Positions 4,676 through 45,904 of a stretch of DNA of 64,000 nt are shown piece after piece. Each line of letters starts with the position of its first letter. Within the stretch, counting starts at the first letter, position 1. A model generated the notes under the pieces. It was not told the DNA's origin. It did no database searches and saw only the letters and a program-made list of their open reading frames with translations. Both the position numbers and the translations under genes were made by a program. The stretch comes from Fibrobacter sp. UWB13 (GTDB taxonomy: Bacteria; Fibrobacterota; Fibrobacteria; Fibrobacterales; Fibrobacteraceae), in assembly GCF_900177805.1 (NCBI RefSeq), contig NZ_FXAX01000001.1, positions 496,001 to 560,000 of the forward strand. Direction: 5' to 3'.

Positions 4676-7600
4676 ATGACGGTGATAGACAATATCAACC
4701 AGAAGTTACGCGATGACCTGGCTTTGGAAATCAAACAAGGCAGCAAGGTTTCGATAGCTGCATCCTGTTTTTCGATTTATGCTTATCAGGAACTCAAGAA
4801 GCAATTAGAAAACATCGAAGAGCTTCGCTTCATTTTTACATCGCCGACATTTATCTCAGAAAGTTTTCCCAAAGAGAAAAAAGAATTCTTTATTCCGCGA
4901 TTGAACCGCGAACGCAGTCTTTACGGCTCTGATTTTGAGGTACGACTTCGTAACGAATTGTCTCAGAAGGCAATTGCACGCGAATGTGCGGAATGGATTC
5001 GTGAAAAGGCTCGTTTTAAATCGAACTTTACAAGCGAACACATGCTCGGATTTGCGAACGTGGATTCCACATCTTATTCTCCACTGCGAGGATTTACAAC
5101 GGTTGACTTGGGTTGCGAACGAGGCGACAACATTTACAACTTTGTGACCAAGCTTGAAGCCCCTCATTCGTCACAATTTTTGCAGCTGTTTGATTCCTTA
5201 TGGAATGATTCAGGCAAAATGCAAGATGTGACGGAAACAGTCATTGAAAACATTTCCGCAGCCTATAACGAAAATTCCCCTGCGTTCATTTACTTTGTCA
5301 CGCTTTACCATATCTTTAGCGAGTTCTTGCAAGACATTTCCGAAGACACTCTTCCGAATGAAAAATCGGGTTTTAAGCAGAGCAAAATCTGGAATATGCT
5401 TTACAATTTCCAAAAAGATGCTGCTCTTGGTGTTATCAATAAGCTTGAAAAATACAATGGATGCATTTTAGCCGATAGCGTTGGTCTTGGGAAAACGTTC
5501 ACCGCTCTGGCTGTCATCAAGTATTACGAAAACAGGAACAAGTCTGTATTGGTTCTATGCCCTAAAAAGCTTGCGAACAACTGGAATACGTACAGAGGTT
5601 TTTACGAAGATAATCCTGTTTATGAAGATCGCCTCGGTTATACGGTTCTTTTTCATACGGACTTGAACCGAGAATCTGGAGATTCCAATGGAACGGACCT
5701 TTCGCGTATTAAATGGAGTGCGTTTGATTTAGTTGTGATTGATGAATCGCACAACTTTAGAAACGGTAGCAAGTACAAAACGTCAAAAGGGAAAATGGTC
5801 GATGATGATTTCGAGCTTGACGAAATCGACAAGATGAACCGTTATGCGACTCTTTTAAATAACGTAATCAAACAGGGTGTAAAGACTAAAGTTTTGATGC
5901 TTTCGGCAACGCCTGTGAACAATCGTTTTAACGACTTGAAAAATCAGCTTGCGCTCGCTTACGAAGGCAAAGAAGAAAACATTAATGACAAACTTTCGAC
6001 AGATAAAGGAATTGGAGAAGTTTTCAGAAATGCACAAAAAGCCTATAACACGTGGAGTAAGTTTGAAGCAAAAGACCGAATGACCGAAAATCTGTTAAAG
6101 CTTCTCGATAGCGATTTTTTCCGTGTACTCGATGCCGTGACAATTGCACGTTCCCGTAAACATATCCAGCGCTATTACGATACCGCTGATATCGGCAAAT
6201 TCCCGGAACGCTTAAAGCCGATTAGCAAAAGTCCAAAGCTGACCGATGTTTCCGGCGTTTGCGATTACAATAAGGTTTATGAGCTTCTCTGCAAATTAGA
6301 CCTGAGCGTTTATACACCGACTAGTTTTATACTCCCCAGTTGCCGAGAAAAATACGAATTGGCCGATGATGAATATCGTTCACTTTCGCAGGCTGGGCGT
6401 GAACAGGGCATTCGCCGATTAATGAGCATCAACTTGCTCAAACGTATGGAAAGTTCTGTCTATTCATTTAACATTACAGTCAAGAAAATTAAAAAACTAA
6501 TTGATTCTAAAATTCAGGAAATCGATGAATTTATTAAGCAAAAGACTAGTCATCAAAAAATTGAATTAGCGGAATTTGCAACTGGAAATTTTGTAGATGA
6601 TTTTGATGCGGATGACCAAAACGATGACGTTCTTTATGGAGTAAAAAAGCACCTTCGCATTGATTTGGCTGACATGGATTATGTTTCGTGGCGAGCTTCA
6701 CTTGCAACGGACTCCGCTTTGTTAGATAGTCTGCTTTCGATGACATCTGTCGTGACGCCTGAACACGACGGAAAATTGCAAGAATTGCTTTCACTCATTA
6801 AGAATAAAGTTGAAAGTCCTATTAATGATGGCAACAAGAAAGTCATTGTATTTACTGCATTCGCCGATACTGCAGATTACCTTTACACGCATGTTTCTGC
6901 ATTTGTAAAAGCGAAATTTGGCTTAGAAACCGCAATGATTTCGGGAACCGAAGAAGGCCGCACCACCGCTAAGCTCAAAAAGCGTGACATGAACACAGTC
7001 CTGACTTGTTTTTCTCCGATTTCAAAAAATAAGGCGGCCATGAAATCCAAGGAGACTGCGGTCATTGATATATTGATTGCGACAGATTGTATTAGTGAAG
7101 GCCAAAACTTGCAGGACTCGGATTACTTGGTGAATTACGACATCCATTGGAATCCGGTTCGTATTATTCAGCGATTTGGACGTATTGACCGCATTGGTTC
7201 AAAGAATGATAAAATTCAACTGGTGAATTTTTGGCCCGACGTGACTTTGGACGAATATATCCAGCTTAAAGCACGTGTTGAAGCGCGTATGAAAATCGTC
7301 GATATGACCAGTACGGGTGACGACAATATCATCGATGAAAATGAAAAAGCCGATTTGGAATATCGTAAATCACAACTTCAAAAACTCCGTGAAGAAGTTG
7401 TGGATCTTGAAGAGATGAACGGTGGCATTAGCATTACCGATTTAGGCTTGAATGAATTCCATTTGGATTTGCTGGATTACGTCAAGAAACATCCCGACAT
7501 TGAAAACGCTCCGCTAGGTTTGCATTCTGTGGTTCAAGCGACAAAAGAGAATCCGCCTGGCGTGATATACGTACTAAAAAATCGTGTAAAAGACGTGAAT

Positions 7601-7954
7601 ATCGATAAGCGGAATCCAATTCATCCCTTTTACATGGTGTATATCACCGATGACGGCAACATTGTTTGCAATCATCTGAATCCGAAAAAGTTACTCGACG
7701 AAATGCGTCTCTTATGCAGGAACCAAGCGGAACCTATAGCTGGCTTATATCGGTTGTTTAATAAAGAAACGCGAGATGGTCGCGATATGAAGAAGTATTC
7801 CAAGTTGCTAGGGGAAGCTATTGTATCGCTTGTGGCAAAAAAGGAGGAGTCGCAAATGGATTGTTTCTTGAATGGCGACTTTGTGGATTTCAAGAGTGAA
7901 GTTGTCAAAGGTCTTGACGATTTTGAATTGATTTGCTTTTTGGTGGTACGCTAG
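4676..7954 (+). CDS. SNF2/RapA-like helicase with degenerate PLD-like N-terminus
   Basis: A 1092-residue superfamily 2 helicase. Residues 1-180 resemble the phospholipase-D-like domain that precedes such helicases (KVSIAASCFSIYAYQEL...), but no HxK...D catalytic motif is visible. The helicase core has Walker A DSVGLGKT (K273), Walker B DESH (356-359), motif III LSATPVNN, and in the second lobe ATDCISEGQNLQ and QRFGRIDRIGS. These are typical of RapA/HepA-like translocases that move on double-stranded DNA. It is the first gene of a co-directional operon; its stop is 9 bp before the DUF4391 gene. The likely role is in DNA surveillance with the type III enzymes downstream, which is inference from context. 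Confidence 0.85.
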   Translation: MTVIDNINQKLRDDLALEIKQGSKVSIAASCFSIYAYQELKKQLENIEELRFIFTSPTFISESFPKEKKEFFIPRLNRERSLYGSDFEVRLRNELSQKAIARECAEWIREKARFKSNFTSEHMLGFANVDSTSYSPLRGFTTVDLGCERGDNIYNFVTKLEAPHSSQFLQLFDSLWNDSGKMQDVTETVIENISAAYNENSPAFIYFVTLYHIFSEFLQDISEDTLPNEKSGFKQSKIWNMLYNFQKDAALGVINKLEKYNGCILADSVGLGKTFTALAVIKYYENRNKSVLVLCPKKLANNWNTYRGFYEDNPVYEDRLGYTVLFHTDLNRESGDSNGTDLSRIKWSAFDLVVIDESHNFRNGSKYKTSKGKMVDDDFELDEIDKMNRYATLLNNVIKQGVKTKVLMLSATPVNNRFNDLKNQLALAYEGKEENINDKLSTDKGIGEVFRNAQKAYNTWSKFEAKDRMTENLLKLLDSDFFRVLDAVTIARSRKHIQRYYDTADIGKFPERLKPISKSPKLTDVSGVCDYNKVYELLCKLDLSVYTPTSFILPSCREKYELADDEYRSLSQAGREQGIRRLMSINLLKRMESSVYSFNITVKKIKKLIDSKIQEIDEFIKQKTSHQKIELAEFATGNFVDDFDADDQNDDVLYGVKKHLRIDLADMDYVSWRASLATDSALLDSLLSMTSVVTPEHDGKLQELLSLIKNKVESPINDGNKKVIVFTAFADTADYLYTHVSAFVKAKFGLETAMISGTEEGRTTAKLKKRDMNTVLTCFSPISKNKAAMKSKETAVIDILIATDCISEGQNLQDSDYLVNYDIHWNPVRIIQRFGRIDRIGSKNDKIQLVNFWPDVTLDEYIQLKARVEARMKIVDMTSTGDDNIIDENEKADLEYRKSQLQKLREEVVDLEEMNGGISITDLGLNEFHLDLLDYVKKHPDIENAPLGLHSVVQATKENPPGVIYVLKNRVKDVNIDKRNPIHPFYMVYITDDGNIVCNHLNPKKLLDEMRLLCRNQAEPIAGLYRLFNKETRDGRDMKKYSKLLGEAIVSLVAKKEESQMDCFLNGDFVDFKSEVVKGLDDFELICFLVVR

Positions 7955-7963
7955 GATTTATCG

Positions 7964-8620
7964 ATGTTTGGATTCCCTGTAGATTCTGAAATTAAAAAGA
8001 TTGTGGCAAAAGATGCCCTGCTGGGACGCGTGGGGCTGCTTGCACCATCATCTACATCTCAAAAGGCGACTTTTAATGAGGATATTGCCCAAGTCGTCAT
8101 TACAAACGTCATTTCTACAAAGAGCTTGCCCGTAGCAGCGGGCGCCCGCGTAAAGGGCTTTTATGTGGCTCGGGTTACGATGAAGCGAAAACAGTTCAAC
8201 CCGAAGAATGTGGAGACCCTGCTTCACCGCATTGGACAAAAGAACATCCTTCTCGCTTTGAGTTATGGCGATGTGGTCCGTTTTGCGCTGAAGTATGACG
8301 AACATATTGTGGTATCAAAGGATTGGGTGTTTGCTGAAGAATTCTGCTTCGTTTTTAGCGGCCTCAACCTGGATGATGTTTGGAACGGAATTGTGAAACA
8401 GGTGGCGGGCAACCCTTGGAACGATGCCTTGAGTGTTTCCGAAAACTTGGATATTCAGGAACATATCGCCAAGTTGCAGAAGGAAATTGCGAACCTTGAA
8501 AAGAAGGCTCGCACCGAAAACCAACCCGCCCGCAAACTTGAATTTTTTAACCGCAAGCGAGACATGGAATCTCAACTCACGGAGTACCAAAATGGAAAAA
8601 GCGAACATGCACAGCCTTGA
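7964..8620 (+). CDS. DUF4391 family protein
   Basis: A 218-residue protein with FPVDSEIKK near the start, a central DVVRFALKYDEHIVVSKDW segment, then a tryptophan-containing VWNGIVKQVAG region. It ends in a Lys/Glu coiled coil (about residues 165-215: LQKEIANLEKKARTENQPARK). This pattern is that of DUF4391, a family I know from helicase plus type III methyltransferase clusters; its biochemical role is not established. An AGGA element precedes the ATG by about 7 bp. The 3' end overlaps the Mod start by 29 bp, suggesting translational coupling. Confidence 0.7.
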   Translation: MFGFPVDSEIKKIVAKDALLGRVGLLAPSSTSQKATFNEDIAQVVITNVISTKSLPVAAGARVKGFYVARVTMKRKQFNPKNVETLLHRIGQKNILLALSYGDVVRFALKYDEHIVVSKDWVFAEEFCFVFSGLNLDDVWNGIVKQVAGNPWNDALSVSENLDIQEHIAKLQKEIANLEKKARTENQPARKLEFFNRKRDMESQLTEYQNGKSEHAQP

Positions 8621-10448
8621 TATGGTGAACGAGAACATCAAGAAAATCGGGAACCTTTTCCCAGAATGTGTCACCGAGACAGTTGACGAAAATGGCAACG
8701 TCAAGGCCGCTATTGATTTTGAAAAATTGCAGGAAAACCTGAGCCACGCTACCATTGGCGAAGGTGAAGAACGTTATCAGTTTACTTGGCCCGGCAAACG
8801 CGAAGCTATCCACAATGCGAATGCTCCCACCAACATGACGCTGCGCCCCTGCAAGGAAGAATCCGTGGATTTTGACAACACGGAAAACCTTTACATTGAA
8901 GGCGACAACCTTGAAGTACTCAAGCTACTCCAGGAAAATTACTTGGGAAAGGTCAAGATGATTTACATTGACCCGCCTTACAATACGGGCAACGACTTCG
9001 TATATAACGACGACTTCAAGGAAGATACGGAATCGTTCCAATCGAAGAGCGGAATGTATGACGAAGATGGAAACATGCTTTTGCAGAACTTCGAGAAGAA
9101 TACCGAAAGCAACGGCCGTTTCCATACTGACTGGCTGAACATGATGTATCCGCGCCTGAAGATTGCAAGGAATTTGCTAAGCGATGACGGCGTGATATTT
9201 ATCAGTATTGATGATAATGAAGTTGAAAATCTTCGTAAAGTTTGTGATGAAATTTATGGAGAAGGTAATTTCATTGCTTGTATTTCGTGGCGAAGAACAG
9301 ACAACCAACCTAATATAGGTTTTTTTGCAAGAGTAAAAGAATACATACTAATCTACGCAAAAACTTCAAATTTTAGTTTAGGAAGGCTTCCCTTAACAGA
9401 AAAAGCTAAGGCTGAGTATAGATACAAAGATGCAAAAGGGTTGTTTCGTAGATCAATTCTTTTGCATAAAACTCGTGGGCGCAGGTTTTATCCAAAAGTA
9501 ACTAAACTAGGAAATACTCTAAATGGTCCTTGGATGGTTTCAGAGGAAGAATTTGATAGAATGGATGCTAATGATGAAATCTATTGGACTGAAAATGGTG
9601 ATGGCCAACCTTATGGAAAAATCTATTTGTCAGAATCCAAAGGTCAAATTGCAAATGATTTTTGGGGTATAGAGTATGGAACCAATCAGAGAGCTAGTTT
9701 GGAAGTCGAAAAAATATTTAATAAGAGATTTTTTGATTTTCCCAAACCCATTAGCTTACTCTCATTTCTAGTGACTCTAGGATCCAATAAAAATTCCATC
9801 ATCCTCGACTTCTTCTCCGGCTCTGCCACCACCGCTCATGCGGTAATGCAGCTCAATGCCGAAGATGGTGGCAAACGTAAATTCATCTGCGTTCAGCTTC
9901 CCGAAGCGACTGTGGAAGATTCCGAGGCCTATAAGGCTGGCTACAAGAACATCTGTGAAATCGGCAAGGAACGTATCCGTCGTGCAGGCAATAAAATCAA
10001 GGAAGAATTTGGCGAAAAGGCAAAAGACCTTGATATCGGTTTCCGTGTGTTGAAACTTGCCGATAGCAACATGAAGGACGTGTATTATAGCCCTGCAGAA
10101 ACAGATTCCGCAGACATTTTTGACGTAAACAACGTCAAGGAGGACCGTACCCCGCTTGACCTGCTTTTCCAGGTCATGCCCGAATGCAATCTGCCGCTCT
10201 TCAGCAAGATTGAAGAGCGCTCCATTGAGGGTAAGACTGTCTATTTCGTGAACGGCAACTATCTCGTCGCCTGTTTTGATGAAGGAATCACCGAAAAACT
10301 CATCAAGTCTGTCATAGACGTTCCCGATAGCGAAAAACCTTACTATTTCTATATGCGCAATCTCGGTCTCGAAAGCGACAAGGTTCTCGACAACTTCGAA
10401 CAACTCTTTGTCCATTACAGCCCTACCACCAAACGCAAGGTCATCTAG
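8592..10448 (+). CDS. mod: type III restriction-modification methyltransferase (Mod), beta class
   Basis: A 618-residue N6-adenine or N4-cytosine methyltransferase. DPPYNTG (D127) comes before the AdoMet-binding DFFSGSATT (from D406), the order of beta-class and type III Mod enzymes. The first 120 residues carry LYIEGDNLEVLKLL, typical of Mod. The ATG at 8592 is preferred over upstream in-frame starts because it follows GGAGTACC and begins with the expected N-terminal sequence; it overlaps the DUF4391 gene by 29 bp. The stretch 9200-9785, between the two catalytic motifs, is clearly more AT-rich than its flanks and corresponds to the target recognition domain, suggesting exchange. The C-terminal part is ordinary in composition. 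Confidence 0.93.
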   Translation: MEKANMHSLDMVNENIKKIGNLFPECVTETVDENGNVKAAIDFEKLQENLSHATIGEGEERYQFTWPGKREAIHNANAPTNMTLRPCKEESVDFDNTENLYIEGDNLEVLKLLQENYLGKVKMIYIDPPYNTGNDFVYNDDFKEDTESFQSKSGMYDEDGNMLLQNFEKNTESNGRFHTDWLNMMYPRLKIARNLLSDDGVIFISIDDNEVENLRKVCDEIYGEGNFIACISWRRTDNQPNIGFFARVKEYILIYAKTSNFSLGRLPLTEKAKAEYRYKDAKGLFRRSILLHKTRGRRFYPKVTKLGNTLNGPWMVSEEEFDRMDANDEIYWTENGDGQPYGKIYLSESKGQIANDFWGIEYGTNQRASLEVEKIFNKRFFDFPKPISLLSFLVTLGSNKNSIILDFFSGSATTAHAVMQLNAEDGGKRKFICVQLPEATVEDSEAYKAGYKNICEIGKERIRRAGNKIKEEFGEKAKDLDIGFRVLKLADSNMKDVYYSPAETDSADIFDVNNVKEDRTPLDLLFQVMPECNLPLFSKIEERSIEGKTVYFVNGNYLVACFDEGITEKLIKSVIDVPDSEKPYYFYMRNLGLESDKVLDNFEQLFVHYSPTTKRKVI

Positions 10449-14913: not shown

Positions 14914-16356
14914 ATGCGTGATCAATTCGAAAGCCCGCTTATCAAGCGTTATGCTAGCAAGGAAATGAGTTTCATCTTCAGCCCGCAGTACAAGTTCCAG
15001 ACTTGGCGCAAGCTGTGGATTTACCTCGCTGAATCCGAAATGGAGCTCGGCCTCCCGATTACGCAGGAGCAAGTCGATGAATTGAAGGCTCACGAAAAGG
15101 ACATCAACTTCGAAGTTGCCGAAGAAGAAGAAAAGCGTCGCCGTCACGATGTGATGAGCCACGTCTATGCTTACGGCGTGCAGTGCCCGAAGGCGAAGGG
15201 CATCATTCACCTCGGTGCAACGTCTGCATTCGTGGGTGACAACACCGACCTCATCCAAATGCAGCAGGCTATGATCCTCGTTCGCAAGCGTCTTTGCCGC
15301 GTGATGGACAAGCTTTCCAAGTTTGCTATGGAATACAAGGACATGGCCCAGCTCGGCGCCACCCACTTCCAGGCCGCCCAGCTCACGACTGTGGGTAAGC
15401 GCGCTTGCCTCTGGCTCCAGGACATGCTCATCGACCTCGAAGAATTGAACTTCCTCATCGAAGTGCTTCCGTTCCGTGGCGTGAAGGGTACGACCGGTAC
15501 GCAGGCAAGCTTCATGGACCTGTTCAATGGCGACGAAGAAAAGATTATGGAACTCGACCGCCGCGTGACCGCCAAGGCAGGCTTCAAGCGCGTGCTCACC
15601 ATCACCGGCCAGACTTACACCCGCAAGTGGGACAACCGCGTGAACCAGGTGCTCAGCTCCATCGCTCAGAGTTTGCACAAGTTCGCCACCGACATGCGCC
15701 TCATGCAGGGCGTCAAGGAAGTGGAAGAACCGTTCGAAAAGACTCAGATTGGTTCTTCTGCCATGGCTTACAAGCGTAACCCGATGCGTAGCGAACGCAT
15801 TTGCTCCCTTGCCCGTTTCGTGATGGCCCAGGTGAACAGCACCGCCTTCACGCAGGCAACGCAGTGGTTCGAACGTACGCTTGACGACAGTGCGAACAAG
15901 CGCCTCGCCATTCCGGAAGCATTCCTCGCTATGGATGCCATGCTCATCATCGCTGAAAACGTCACGAACGGTCTCGTCGTTTATCCGAAGGTCATCGAAA
16001 AGCGCATCATGGCTGAACTCCCGTTCATGGCTACCGAAAACATCATCATGGAAGGCGTGAAGAATGGCGGCGACCGTCAGGAACTCCACGAAGAAATCCG
16101 CGTGATGTCCATGGAAGCTGGCAAGGTCGTCAAGGAACAGGGCAAGGACAACGACTTGCTTGAACGCGTGCTGAAGAACGAAAAGTTCCAGAAACTCGGT
16201 ATCACCGAAGCCAAGCTCAAGGAAATCCTCGATCTCCGCAAGTTCGTGGGGCGCGCTCCTGGTCAGGTCGTGAAGTTCGTGACTGAAGAAGTTCGCCCAG
16301 CTATCGAAGCTGTGAAGGACTGGGCAAATATCGACGCCGGTGAATTGAAGGTTTAA
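14914..16356 (+). CDS. purB: adenylosuccinate lyase
   Basis: A 480-residue fumarase/aspartase superfamily enzyme. It splits SAICAR to AICAR plus fumarate and adenylosuccinate to AMP plus fumarate in purine synthesis. The family signature is seen as [15 protein letters not shown] near residue 285, with [10 protein letters not shown] and TRKWDNRV also conserved. The start follows an AAAAAGGA element by 8 bp. Length and sequence are close to the longer eukaryotic-like PurB type rather than the 430-residue Bacillus type. It is monocistronic, with a terminator at 16401. Confidence 0.95.
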
Positions 16357-16622: not shown

Positions 16623-16657
16623 GTGATTTCTCCAATAAAATGGTTTATTTTACCATT

Positions 16658-17512
16658 ATGGAGAAAATTGACTTATCACAATGGACGATGTTCAGCAATC
16701 GTCACAATTCCGAGAACTACAACAGTCCGGATGGCAAATGGATGCTGAAATTGGGTTTTCCGGGGTTTTGCTCGACGAAGGAGGAATTGCTCCGCGAGCA
16801 GGATATTTGCCGGAAAGTGGTTTCACTTGGAATCCCGACGCCGCATGTGGGCGATATTGTCGAACAGGACGGTCGTTTGGGCCTGATTTATGAACGCATC
16901 GTGGGGAAACGTTCTATTTCAAAATGCGTGGGTGAAAATCCAGAACATCTTGAGAAATACATCAAGGTTTTTGCAGAGCATTGCAAAAAGCTGCACTCCA
17001 CGTCGTGCATTCCCGGCACGTTCCAAGATGCAGAGGAGAAGTATTCGCGCTTGATCGAAGAATCGAAGATGTTCCCTGAGAATGTCAAGGAATTTGCGCG
17101 TAACCTCATTAAGGAAACGCCAAAGGTTTCTCGTTGCGTCCATGGTGACATGCAGACTGGCAACCTAATTGTTAATGACAATGGCGCGTACTTTATCGAT
17201 TTGGGCGAGTTTGCCTGCGGTAACCCGCTTTTCGATTTAGGTTGCTATTTCTATTTCTGCCATTATCTGCCGGATGATTATTTGCTGGCGGCCCACTACA
17301 TGAATGCGGCGATGATGCACAAGTGCTGGGACGTGTTTGCAAAGTATTATTTTGGTGCCGATACTCCGGAGAAATTGGCGGCGGTGGATGCTCGCGTCAA
17401 ACCGTACGTGCTGTTCTCGATTCTCGACTTTGAGCATTTGATGGCTGAAGATGCAAATTTAAAATACCTGGAAATGAATTTCCAGGTAGCTCGAAAAGAC
17501 TTGGGATTGTAA
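16658..17512 (+). CDS. APH/ChoK-fold kinase-like protein (Fibrobacter paralogous family)
   Basis: A 284-residue protein of the aminoglycoside phosphotransferase fold. The catalytic loop is CVHGDMQTGNLIV (HGD...N) near residue 165, followed by FIDLGEF for the metal-binding Asp. It resembles the paralogous family defined in Fibrobacter succinogenes (TIGR02172, from memory), whose substrate is unknown; resistance to aminoglycosides should not be assumed. An upstream in-frame ATG at 16640 is possible; the start at 16658 (MEKIDLSQW) is preferred because it begins with the family-like segment. Neither start has a clear Shine-Dalgarno sequence. The 3' end converges on the GCS2 gene with 6 bp between them. 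Confidence 0.8.
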   Translation: MEKIDLSQWTMFSNRHNSENYNSPDGKWMLKLGFPGFCSTKEELLREQDICRKVVSLGIPTPHVGDIVEQDGRLGLIYERIVGKRSISKCVGENPEHLEKYIKVFAEHCKKLHSTSCIPGTFQDAEEKYSRLIEESKMFPENVKEFARNLIKETPKVSRCVHGDMQTGNLIVNDNGAYFIDLGEFACGNPLFDLGCYFYFCHYLPDDYLLAAHYMNAAMMHKCWDVFAKYYFGADTPEKLAAVDARVKPYVLFSILDFEHLMAEDANLKYLEMNFQVARKDLGL

Positions 17513-17518
17513 GCGATT

Positions 17519-18802
17519 TTACTCGCTAATTCCATAGAGCCGGTTGTGCGCAAGGCAATCGGCTAATTTTTTGTATTCCGTGACAAACGCTTCGTGGGCG
17601 GGGGCATCGCCGAGTGCTTTGTAGAGGGCGCTGGAGAGCGTTCCGCGTTCGAGCATTTTTTCCATGAAGCTCTGTGAGACTTCGGTGAGATTGTTTTTCA
17701 CGACGCTGTAGATGTGCTTCCAGATGTCGCCCGCGGAAACCGCGGAATCCATGCCAAATACGGAGAGGTATTCTTGCCAGTCGATGGTCGCGTTTTCAGC
17801 ATCCTTTGTGGTCTTGGCGAGGAGTTCAGCAAGGCGTGTCGTGTCGAAGTTGCGCAAAAATTCACGGTATTCCTTGAGCGTGTGCGGCACGGAATTTGCG
17901 GCGGATGCGTTTTCGCGAGATGCCGCGAACTTGCCATTCACAATCGCCTTGAGTGTTGCTATTTCAAGCTCTACAATGGCGATGTCGGCATTCGGGCATT
18001 CTTGAATATCGACAAGGCGTATTTCAATGGCTCCACGATCAAAGCGGGCGATGGCACCACGACTGTTCAAGAAGAAATGATTGAGCAAGTGTTCGGTATC
18101 GTACGGGGCGATAGCCTTCTTGACTTTGTCAAAAATCATCTTGTTGTATTCATCGTAGCTGTACGCCTGTTCCGGGATGACTTGGCCTGTGATTTCAGGG
18201 ACCTTGTCTTGGTTGTGGCGGTAAACTTCGATGCGGGCGTCACGATAGCCGGTGTATTTGCCGTCGAGATACGGGCTGCTGGCTGCAATGGCTGGAATCA
18301 GCGGCAACAGCAAGCGAATTGCTGCGTGAAGCTCGCCAAATTCTTCGTCACCGTCAAAAGAAAGGTTCAGGTGCGTGCTTTGCAAGTTTGCCCAGCCGTG
18401 TCCTTTGCAGTTGAAAATGCGGTCATAAGTCTGGTAAATGTCGAGACAATCGTACGGCCAGAGTTGCATCTCTGCCGGGTCCATGAACGGATGGCAGGCG
18501 CTCGGCAAAAGCATCGCGTTGATCTTTTCGAGCTTCTTGTTTGCACGACGAATCTCGTGGAAGAATCGCTTGCCGAGCCCATCAAATGTGGATTTGGGGT
18601 GTGCGCACTTGAATTCCAGCACATGGCTTACGAGTTCGTTCGAAAGCCCGATATCATCGTATTCAATGTCAGAAAGCTGATTGCCGTCTTTATCTTTTCC
18701 GAGCGGGACATCGGCGCGAGGCAGCACGTTCAGCGTGTCGCGATCGACAATCATGAATTCCATTTCGACGCCGAAGCGTTCCCAAAGTTTGTAATTGCTC
18801 AT
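17519..18802 (-). CDS. glutamate-cysteine ligase (GCS2) family amidoligase
   Basis: A 427-residue carboxylate-amine ligase of the GCS2/YbdK type. The N-terminus WERFGVEMEFMIVD gives the FG-E-E-E-metal-binding pattern. SACHPFMDP and STHLNLSFDGDEEF match the conserved H-P and H-x-N motifs, and AIEIRLVDIQECPN the C-terminal catalytic region. Such enzymes join an amino acid to the gamma carboxylate of glutamate using ATP. The start lies 9 bp downstream of the RimK-like gene stop with AGGGGGC as ribosome-binding site, so the two form an operon. This pairing, rather than glutathione synthesis, suggests formation of a peptide or protein modification. Confidence 0.85.
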   Translation of the reverse strand: MSNYKLWERFGVEMEFMIVDRDTLNVLPRADVPLGKDKDGNQLSDIEYDDIGLSNELVSHVLEFKCAHPKSTFDGLGKRFFHEIRRANKKLEKINAMLLPSACHPFMDPAEMQLWPYDCLDIYQTYDRIFNCKGHGWANLQSTHLNLSFDGDEEFGELHAAIRLLLPLIPAIAASSPYLDGKYTGYRDARIEVYRHNQDKVPEITGQVIPEQAYSYDEYNKMIFDKVKKAIAPYDTEHLLNHFFLNSRGAIARFDRGAIEIRLVDIQECPNADIAIVELEIATLKAIVNGKFAASRENASAANSVPHTLKEYREFLRNFDTTRLAELLAKTTKDAENATIDWQEYLSVFGMDSAVSAGDIWKHIYSVVKNNLTEVSQSFMEKMLERGTLSSALYKALGDAPAHEAFVTEYKKLADCLAHNRLYGISE

Positions 18803-18811
18803 GATTGCCCC

Positions 18812-20314
18812 CTATAAAAACATATCTCTTTCGTGTTGGAGCACTTTTTGTTGTGCTGCGTTTTGGCGGTCTTCGATGCGGTGGCGCAGGCTCCTCATGA
18901 TGGCAAGATAAATCTTCTTTTTGCCAACTTGGTCTTCGATACCATGGTCAATACTTGGGTTGTCGTTTACTTCAATTACGACCGGGTGACCGTTGATTTC
19001 CTTGAGGTCCACGCCGTAAAGGCCGTTACCGATAAGGCTTGCGACGCGGAGAGCCGTTTTCACGATGCCATGCGGAACGCTTTCTATCGGGAGACAATCC
19101 CACTTGCCGCAGACCTCGTTCTTGTCCTTGCTATCCCAGTTGTAGATTTGCCAGTGGTCCTTCGCCATGTAGTATTTGCAGGCAAAGAGCGGTTTTCCGT
19201 CGAGAATGCCGATTCTCCAGTCGAATTCCGTGGGCGTAAATTCTTGAGCGATGAGCAAGTCGCTATGCTCGAACATCGTGTCGAGAATTTTTTCAAGTTC
19301 TTCCTTGTTGTTTGCCTTTTTGACGCCCATGCTGAAGCTTGAATCCGGCGTCTTGATGACCATCGGGAATCCGATTTCCTTGGCGAGCGTGTGTCGGTTT
19401 TCGCTGTGGGCAATAATCGTCTTCGGGGAGGGAATCTTGCCGACTGTCATCAGTTCTTGCAAATAAACTTTGTTGGAACAACGTAAAATACTGTCGGGAT
19501 CGTCAATGACGGCGATGCCTTCGCTCTGGGCGCGGCGTGCAAATGCGTATGTGTGGTGGTTGACGTTTGTCGTTTCGCGGATGAAGATGGCATCAAATTC
19601 ACCAACGCGGTGGTAGTCCGTCTTGGTAATCATTTCCACGCGGAAACCTGTATCCTGAGCGGCTTCGATAAAGAGCTGGATGGCTTCCTTGTTGCTCGGC
19701 GGTTCCACTTCATCGGGATTCGTTAAAATGCCTAGATCATACACGTAGTCTTCCGTCTTGGGGGAAACGTAGCGGTCTTTCTGGAAATATTCAATGGCAA
19801 ACTGGTCTACCATTTCCTTGTGCGTTTCGGGAATTTCGTCAACGCTAATCGGGCGGATAGACTGGATGAACCATTTTTGCTTGAAGACAAATTTTGCACG
19901 CAGGAGCGGTGCCTGGAAAACGCGGTAAAGAGCCTGCGAAAGTTCTAGGTATTGCGCGCTGACGTTTTGCCCAAAGTAAATGGAAAGCACGAATTCTGTG
20001 CCGGTCAGCTTGTGAAGGCTCTTCTGGATCAGCTCGTCGATTTCGTCGCTGATGATTTTTACGACTGCCGGGGCCTTGAAATCGCGGATGTTCTTGACGT
20101 TCGGGATGACCTTGTGACCGCGCGCTTCGGCAAGCAGGCTTACATAATAACCCTTGCTCTGGTAGCTGTAGTCTTTGCACAAGTTGAAAACACGAACGTT
20201 TTTCTGGGTTGTAAATTCTGGATTAGTAAGGTAGTCTTTTGCCGAGACAATTTCGGCTTCGGGAATGTGGAACTTCCAATTCTTTGGCGTGTTCACGACA
20301 ATTATTTTTTTCAT
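18812..20314 (-). CDS. RimK-like ATP-grasp ligase with RLAN-type N-terminus
   Basis: A 500-residue protein. Residues 1-190 resemble the N-terminal domain of RimK-like proteins of this size (MKKIIVVNTPKNWKFHIPEA, YYVSLLAEARGHKVIPN). Residues about 200-480 form an ATP-grasp domain: FDAIFIRETTNVNHH, NKVYLQELM, GFPMVIKTPDSSFSMGV for ATP binding, AQEFTPTEFDWRIGIL, and PVVIEVNDNPSIDHGIED for the metal-binding E-N-N motif. It likely adds amino acids (glutamate in RimK) to a carboxylate acceptor. The ATG at 20314 (MKKII) is chosen over one 17 codons upstream. It is the first gene of an operon with the GCS2 gene and divergent from mfd. Confidence 0.85.
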   Translation of the reverse strand: MKKIIVVNTPKNWKFHIPEAEIVSAKDYLTNPEFTTQKNVRVFNLCKDYSYQSKGYYVSLLAEARGHKVIPNVKNIRDFKAPAVVKIISDEIDELIQKSLHKLTGTEFVLSIYFGQNVSAQYLELSQALYRVFQAPLLRAKFVFKQKWFIQSIRPISVDEIPETHKEMVDQFAIEYFQKDRYVSPKTEDYVYDLGILTNPDEVEPPSNKEAIQLFIEAAQDTGFRVEMITKTDYHRVGEFDAIFIRETTNVNHHTYAFARRAQSEGIAVIDDPDSILRCSNKVYLQELMTVGKIPSPKTIIAHSENRHTLAKEIGFPMVIKTPDSSFSMGVKKANNKEELEKILDTMFEHSDLLIAQEFTPTEFDWRIGILDGKPLFACKYYMAKDHWQIYNWDSKDKNEVCGKWDCLPIESVPHGIVKTALRVASLIGNGLYGVDLKEINGHPVVIEVNDNPSIDHGIEDQVGKKKIYLAIMRSLRHRIEDRQNAAQQKVLQHERDMFL

Positions 20315-44525: not shown

Positions 44526-45209
44526 TTAAAAATTAAGCAGCTTTTGGTTAATCTCGATTTCAAGTCCCGCGTAACTTTGGCCGAACTTTTGGCGAAGCGT
44601 GGTCGTAAGGCCATCGGACTTGCCCAAATACGGGTAATTCTTGCGGATTTTAAGCCACGGGGCGCGTTCGTGGATGTTCTGGATGAGCGTTTGCGCAATT
44701 TTTACTTCGGCAGGTCGGCTCGGGTCATAGAGAATCCCGACATCGGCATCGCGCTCGACACCATTTAATACAGGCGTAAAGCTATGAATACCGAGGTGGA
44801 TGACCTTGAGCGGCGCTTCCTTAGGTGCATTTTTCTCATTTTTGCGCGCTCTCGCAGGAATTTCACTCGCGACAAAGTTTTCAATTTTCTCACGGTATTT
44901 TTCCCAAAGACTCATCATGTGCGATTTTACGGTATTTGGTAATCCAACAGTAAATTCAGAAAAGAACGTCTTGTTGGTCGCACTGCGGTTCATGTCGACC
45001 ACGAGTCTCGAGAACCGACTAGAGCAATGGAAGTCGGGCTTTAATCGTTTTACAAGATTTGAAAATACTTTATATGCACCAATGTCGTAAGCGCGGTGGG
45101 AGGCGAGAACGTCATCGGGAATCTTGGAATCGCGGAGTGCGCGCAGGACGAAATCCGGCACAGCGTTGCTCGCATGTTCGCAGGTAATCATCAGTGCCGG
45201 AGCTTTCAT
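44526..45209 (-). CDS. N-formylglutamate amidohydrolase-like protein
   Basis: A 227-residue protein of the N-formylglutamate amidohydrolase (HutG2-like) family. ITCEHASNAVPDFV near the N-terminus and DIGAYKVFSNLVKRL plus VDMNRSA are the family signatures; VIHLGIHSFTPVLNG carries another conserved His. These enzymes cleave N-acyl glutamate-like amides. The start overlaps the stop of the C39-like gene (TAATG), so the two are translationally coupled. With no hut genes nearby, a role in the amidoligase pathway (17519-20314) is more likely than histidine degradation; this is inference. Confidence 0.85.
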   Translation of the reverse strand: MKAPALMITCEHASNAVPDFVLRALRDSKIPDDVLASHRAYDIGAYKVFSNLVKRLKPDFHCSSRFSRLVVDMNRSATNKTFFSEFTVGLPNTVKSHMMSLWEKYREKIENFVASEIPARARKNEKNAPKEAPLKVIHLGIHSFTPVLNGVERDADVGILYDPSRPAEVKIAQTLIQNIHERAPWLKIRKNYPYLGKSDGLTTTLRQKFGQSYAGLEIEINQKLLNF

Positions 45210-45904
45210 TACTTTTTCTCCACGACCAGGATGTTTCCGTCGTACGTCATGACACCCAGCAAAATGCTGTGGATTAGGCGGAACTTGTCGACTTTGTAAT
45301 AAGGGCCGCTTGCCATCGGGTTCGTACAATCCGGGTCTGCAACCATGAACTGCTTCTTTTCATCGAGTCCGTAAAGCACTACGAAATGCCCCATCGGCTC
45401 GCCGTGAATATCGTCAAAGACGGACTGGTCTTTTTCGTTTGTGTATTCGCGAGGGGAACGATAAAGATAGGTGGCGCTGAGGCCGCAAAGCACCGGAATG
45501 TCTCGCTTGAAATAGCTTTCGAACATGCTTGCGCGAAGGTCTGCGGTAGCGACTGTTCCGCCAAGGTCAATGAATCTGATATAGGCATCAATTGCCTTTT
45601 TGAGCTTGGGGGCGTGTTTTGCCTTGTGCAAAGCGACCAGCTTTTCGCGGAGCTCGGGCATCTTGAGCTTGCTCCACGTCGGGTCAAAAATCTTTAAATT
45701 ATAAGAATAAATGGTAGCCTTGAATCCGCGCTTGAGGGCGTCGATACCAAGAAAAACGCCTAGCGTGCCACCTTCTTCCAAAAATTCGATTTCGGAAATG
45801 AGCTTTTTAAGGGGAATGTTATAGCCAAGATAAGAGTAAACAGCGTGTAGGCTAGTCGGTCCGCACGTAACATCGTCTGGCTGAGGGAGTATTTTCAAAT
45901 CCAT
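45209..45904 (-). CDS. C39-like cysteine peptidase
   Basis: A 231-residue papain-like protein. DDVTCGPTSLHAVYSYLG carries the catalytic Cys with the C39 Q/D-x-x-x-C-G pattern. GHFVVLYGLDEK carries the His, and FMVADPDCTNP the Asp. No ABC transporter domain or signal peptide is attached, so it is a free peptidase-like enzyme, probably cytoplasmic. The ATG at 45904 is used because the conserved domain begins right after it. C39-like peptidases of this type are known partners of RimK-like/GCS2 amidoligases. It forms an operon with the downstream amidohydrolase. Confidence 0.8.
   Translation of the reverse strand: MDLKILPQPDDVTCGPTSLHAVYSYLGYNIPLKKLISEIEFLEEGGTLGVFLGIDALKRGFKATIYSYNLKIFDPTWSKLKMPELREKLVALHKAKHAPKLKKAIDAYIRFIDLGGTVATADLRASMFESYFKRDIPVLCGLSATYLYRSPREYTNEKDQSVFDDIHGEPMGHFVVLYGLDEKKQFMVADPDCTNPMASGPYYKVDKFRLIHSILLGVMTYDGNILVVEKK

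Follow-up and report, generated by a model that had tools for sequence, protein, structure and literature searches.

Amidoligase gene neighbourhoods that combine RimK-like, GCS2, C39 and N-formylglutamate-amidohydrolase genes were reportedly described by Iyer, Abhiman, Burroughs and Aravind in 2009. The gene set considered here thus appears to be described already; what is added is the splitting of the operon and the alternation between GCS2 and GNAT partners. No experimental study of the four-gene module was found in the literature searched. A passage in PMC10318531 cites the work of Iyer and Aravind when it names C39-like proteins with a fused GNAT as candidate ligase systems. Another described system is that of the osmolyte NAGGN, which involves an acetylating GNAT and a peptide ligase and has a peptidase gene in its operon (PMC8070244).

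The window, i.e. the whole stretch of 64,000 nucleotides of Fibrobacter sp. UWB13 that was analyzed, contains the same four families as the neighbourhoods of Iyer et al. 2009 but differs from them in that the genes form two pairs 24 kb apart, a ligase pair (RLAN-RimK and GCS2) and a hydrolase pair (C39 and the N-formylglutamate-amidohydrolase-like FGase); the window lacks the common, though not strictly defining, arrangement of all four in one operon. All four genes were found at the positions and on the strands reported in an earlier note on this DNA, with family matches above the Pfam cut-offs (Table 1; 72 bits for GCS2 against a cut-off of 21). In the ligase pair, for which that note proposed an operon, GCS2 lies directly downstream of RimK on the same strand, with 9 nt, including a G-rich stretch, between the RimK TAG and the GCS2 ATG. 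Likewise, the coupling described for the hydrolases is seen at 45211-45207, where TAATG holds the C39 stop codon TAA and the FGase start codon ATG with one A common to both; because of this overlap, we placed the FGase start at 45209 and not at that of the longer mechanical ORF. The window genome (3.8 Mb) has one match each for GCS2 and RLAN.

Table 1 Genes of the ligase and hydrolase pairs in the window.
Gene product	Coordinates	Strand	Length	Pfam match (E-value)
RLAN-RimK ATP-grasp amide ligase	18812..20314	-	500 aa	RLAN 1e-49; RimK 1.2e-10
GCS2 carboxylate-amine ligase	17519..18802	-	427 aa	GCS2 5.9e-20
C39-like cysteine peptidase	45209..45904	-	231 aa	Peptidase_C39_2 2.6e-8; C39 6e-7
FGase (N-formylglutamate-amidohydrolase-like hydrolase)	44526..45209	-	227 aa	PF05013 9e-16

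The first ligase carries an N-terminal RLAN domain, the signature of the RLAN-RimK ligase family. Its ATP-grasp residues K282, K321, D436, E448 and N450 are invariant in 30 diverse homologues, and E358 is kept in 28/30. In GCS2, E13, E15, R253, E260, R262 and others are invariant in 25 homologues, as are E11, H12, H138, H142 and others of FGase in 24. Q8, C14, H173 and D190 of the peptidase are invariant in 26 homologues, a pattern that fits a working Cys-His-Asp site of the papain-like type. Because catalytic residues are essentially invariant across 24-30 diverse homologues, all four enzymes are expected to be active. The AlphaFold model of RimK (pLDDT 85) resembles LysX/ArgX, RimK and D-Ala-D-Ala ligases in its ATP-grasp part, as judged by structure search. 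For the GCS2 model (pLDDT 91), the best structural matches are YbdK (1tt4, 1r8g) and the plant glutamate-cysteine ligase 2gwc, and a distantly common fold links it to PafA/Dop (structure-match ranks 22-27). The FGase profile matched the solved structure 2odf at 6e-27.

To follow the four genes through the phylum, profile searches for RimK, GCS2, C39 and FGase were run over 168 Fibrobacterota genomes. Complete sets were present in 73 of the 95 genomes with any member, while RimK and GCS2 were the only members in 9, FGase alone was missing in 8, RimK alone was missing in one draft assembly (G081), and single ligase genes were left in four (RimK only 2, GCS2 only 2). The earlier note had held that its link between the pairs would fall if genomes commonly carried just one of them; the co-occurrence counts mostly speak against such a pattern. 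C39 and strong FGase matches essentially never occurred without ligases, whereas ligases can occur without hydrolases. The genes form a single block in the order C39>RimK>GCS2>FGase in 40/73 complete-set genomes; 15/73, all of the window's type, carry RimK-GCS2 and C39-FGase as two separate pairs, with 25-125 kb in between where both lie on one contig. In addition, FGase alone is located elsewhere in 12/73, and the genes are spread over three places in 3/73. All four are thus retained after the break-up of the operon, and therefore function, not operon inertia, keeps them together. The retention of orthologues across Fibrobacterota also places the module far beyond chance. The split means that selection retains these genes together without operon linkage.

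Some Fibrobacterota loci depart from this pattern. Three Fibrobacter genomes (G086, G087 and G088, the last 99% complete) have RimK-GCS2 with C39 and FGase undetected and represent natural hydrolase-less strains. RLAN-RimK was found without detectable GCS2, C39 or FGase in G044 (locus L073) and G145 (locus L074), which belong to two further genera of this family. Some intact operons contain a gene for a lipoprotein-like protein of ~430 aa between GCS2 and FGase (L062, 5986-7431; L063, 2059-3363).

Outside the phylum, a search of 84,980 species genomes with the RimK profile returned at least 580 relatives, of which the 80 with the best matches were examined. These 80 are the closest relatives and not a random sample, and 74 of them lie outside Fibrobacterota. 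The full order C39-RimK-GCS2-FGase was present in 28 of these 74 loci, and C39-RimK-GCS2 in 21 more; 6 of the 21 are cut off by contig ends, and FGase was undetected beside the other 15, absences to be read with the fact that the FGase profile missed a PF05013 gene at one locus (L144). Full operons were found in Bacteroidota, Balneolota, Ignavibacteria, Spirochaetes, Planctomycetota, Gammaproteobacteria, Desulfuromonadales, Desulfobulbaceae, Nitrospirae and Vicinamibacteraceae, which brings the groups of about phylum rank that have this order to roughly ten. Of the four members, FGase is both the most dispensable and the most divergent. Apparent RimK-GCS2 gene fusions in six loci (L117, L122, L126, L133, L138, L142) were rejected as artefacts of out-of-frame ORF extension. 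One RLAN-RimK homologue (40% identity) lies on the Pseudomonas aeruginosa plasmid pZYPA1927 (L184, 4908-6497), adjoining pagP and glutamate/aspartate transporter genes; C39, GCS2 and FGase do not adjoin it.

Since the four genes form one operon in 40 relatives and in 28 loci elsewhere, the window holds a rearranged member of the module, and the connection that the earlier note drew between the two pairs is supported by this single operon in related Fibrobacterota and many other phyla. On the reading favoured here, they make up one functional module whose genes have come apart in the lineage of the window. In genus g5 (L176), purB lies next to the intact operon and is convergent with it; the purB of the window (14914-16356) is likewise still faced by RimK-GCS2, although a single kinase gene has come to lie in between. 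The most parsimonious account, with g5 as the one outgroup genus, is that the ligases kept their place and the hydrolases moved away. The intervening gene (16640-17512) encodes an APH-like kinase of a Fibrobacter paralogous family (TIGR02172, 350 bits); it is convergent, and its end lies 7 nt from that of GCS2. A ligase and hydrolase module that is found in the same order in many phyla and kept gene by gene after break-up must have a steadily useful role.

A variant of the ligase was observed with a different partner. In five loci of Bacteroidetes/Balneola (L103, L139, L153, L154, L156; about 7515-9480), an N-terminal GNAT is fused to RLAN-RimK, as seen by Pfam in three and by alignment of all five, and these fusions stand without GCS2, C39 and FGase. 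A GNAT gene adjoins RLAN-RimK in L101, L161 and L136 and is located about 2.3 kb upstream of it in L100. Among 48 RimK-bearing genomes, which are related, not independent, and in some cases fragmentary, none had both GCS2 and a RimK-linked GNAT (GCS2 only in 35, GNAT only in 9, neither in 4); with a GNAT profile built from 8 of the 9 scoring genomes, GNAT presence is partly circular, a reservation that does not touch the lack of GNAT in the 35 genomes with GCS2. In the same set, GCS2 and C39 were both present in 32 genomes and both missing in 12, with GCS2 only in 3 and C39 only in 1. Strong FGase matches were found in 20/35 genomes with GCS2 and in 0/13 without it, leaving 15 with GCS2 only. 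Given the kinship of the genomes, Fisher p-values for these tables exaggerate how independent the observations are. The mutual exclusion suggests that GCS2 and the RimK-linked GNAT are alternative amine-capping partners and, because both acylate amines, the two may be alternative caps. C39 and FGase would belong to the gamma-glutamyl version of the ligase. It is conceivable, if rather doubtful, that RLAN-RimK marks a widespread class of capped-peptide systems, in which the product is finished either by GCS2, which adds a gamma-glutamyl cap and brings C39 and FGase to remove it, or by GNAT, which adds an acetyl cap and lacks C39/FGase. If true, the products of this alternative-cap class would form a new family of peptide metabolites, or of reversible tags, common among bacteria. 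Concrete, testable predictions on the product and the order of the enzymes follow from the alternation of GNAT with GCS2 and from the rule that hydrolases occur only with ligases.

For the module itself we tentatively favour, at a little under even confidence, that a short peptide with a gamma-glutamyl cap is made by RimK and GCS2 and degraded by C39 and FGase. RLAN-RimK and GCS2, both ATP-dependent, would make a short amide-linked glutamate-containing peptide, the amine of which GCS2 would cap with a gamma-glutamyl group. C39 would cut an internal amide of the ligase product, and FGase would probably free acyl-glutamate or a terminal residue. Such removal is not obligatory, since G088 keeps the ligases alone and 15 loci lack an adjoining FGase. 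The product would more likely be a free small peptide (a storage compound, osmolyte or protective metabolite) than a protein tag. This proposal is built on the families, the conserved catalytic residues, operon conservation, co-retention, the dependence of the hydrolases on the ligases and the GCS2/GNAT exclusion. We infer the glutamate chemistry from family membership, and the substrates, the type of bond, the direction in which the cycle runs and the choice between small molecule and tag are predictions. The earlier note had considered a cycle of synthesis and removal of a peptide or protein tag; the cycle stays plausible, but the evidence gives a tag no preference over a peptide that is free.

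Among the alternatives, a reversible protein tag survives best, although we consider it unlikely: RimK and GCS2 would add a short peptide, either rich in glutamate or branched, to a protein, and C39 and FGase would untag it. RimK extends ribosomal protein S6, and in structure the ATP-grasp part is closest to enzymes that include RimK and the carrier-protein ligases LysX/ArgX. The distant PafA/Dop fold of GCS2 and removal by a peptidase and an amidohydrolase would also fit a tag, the target gene of which need not be nearby; the genomic footprint of a protein target would be much like that of a free peptide. However, RimK widely missed the cut-off of the protein-modifying equivalog NF007764 (32/331 bits), and no conserved target or small carrier, including a LysW-like one, was found near the operon. 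The GNAT alternation and the NAGGN precedent suit a small peptide at least equally.

More improbable is a glutathione-like thiol pathway, in which GCS2 would form gamma-Glu-Cys or an analogue, RimK would add the third residue, and C39 and FGase would recycle the product. The fold and family of GCS2 and an ATP-grasp enzyme as second ligase parallel GshA/GshB, and GshB is absent from the window genome; yet six gammaproteobacterial genomes have GshB over its curated cut-off beside the RimK-GCS2 module, and the equivalog cut-offs are missed by RimK (31/299 bits, TIGR01380) and GCS2 (34/249 bits, TIGR02048). Glutathione synthesis also has no need of C39 and FGase, and we rejected this pathway as the sole reading. 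Maturation of a ribosomal peptide of the graspetide-like RiPP type, with C39 as leader peptidase, is very improbable. ATP-grasp and C39 do occur together in RiPP clusters (PMC8939145), but the C39 of the module has no ABC transporter fused to it, and the loci outside Fibrobacterota yielded neither a precursor peptide nor a recurrent fifth gene, small carrier or transporter; small ORFs in the 1.5 kb flanks gave no family in more than 4 loci, and those were closely related. That two functionally unrelated pairs lie 24 kb apart by chance, as the genomes with the ligase pair alone might suggest, is hardly credible and largely refuted by the single operon in most relatives and many phyla. An anti-phage defence set was also considered and set aside, with a best PADLOC match (E 0.009) that is not convincing and no phage homologue of RimK found.

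Compared with enzymes of known function, the members of the module are related but distinct. RLAN-RimK has the ATP-grasp core and residues in common with the S6 glutamate ligase RimK, but it differs in its extra ~150-aa RLAN domain and its operon, and scores below the S6-RimK cut-offs (TIGR00768 73/143 bits, in addition to NF007764). GCS2 has the fold and the GCS2 Pfam family in common with YbdK and the glutamate-cysteine ligase 2 family, but reaches none of the cut-offs for YbdK and GshA (52/176 bits at best), with about 10-13% identity to solved members. FGase has PF05013 in common with HutG-type N-formylglutamate amidohydrolases and is related to the solved 2odf, whereas it has no NCBIfam match and stands in an operon with ligases, not with histidine degradation. 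The GNAT-fused RLAN-RimK variant is similar in plan to the NAGGN pathway (asnO-ngg and a peptidase; PMC8070244). An identity of the fusions with NAGGN synthetase was rejected: TIGR03103 was not among the best matches listed for three of them, and one linked GNAT reached 19/569 bits. In the module loci no AsnO-like or M42 gene recurs, and GCS2, FGase and C39 are found instead; NAGGN synthesis is a precedent for the capped-peptide plan, and not a relative.
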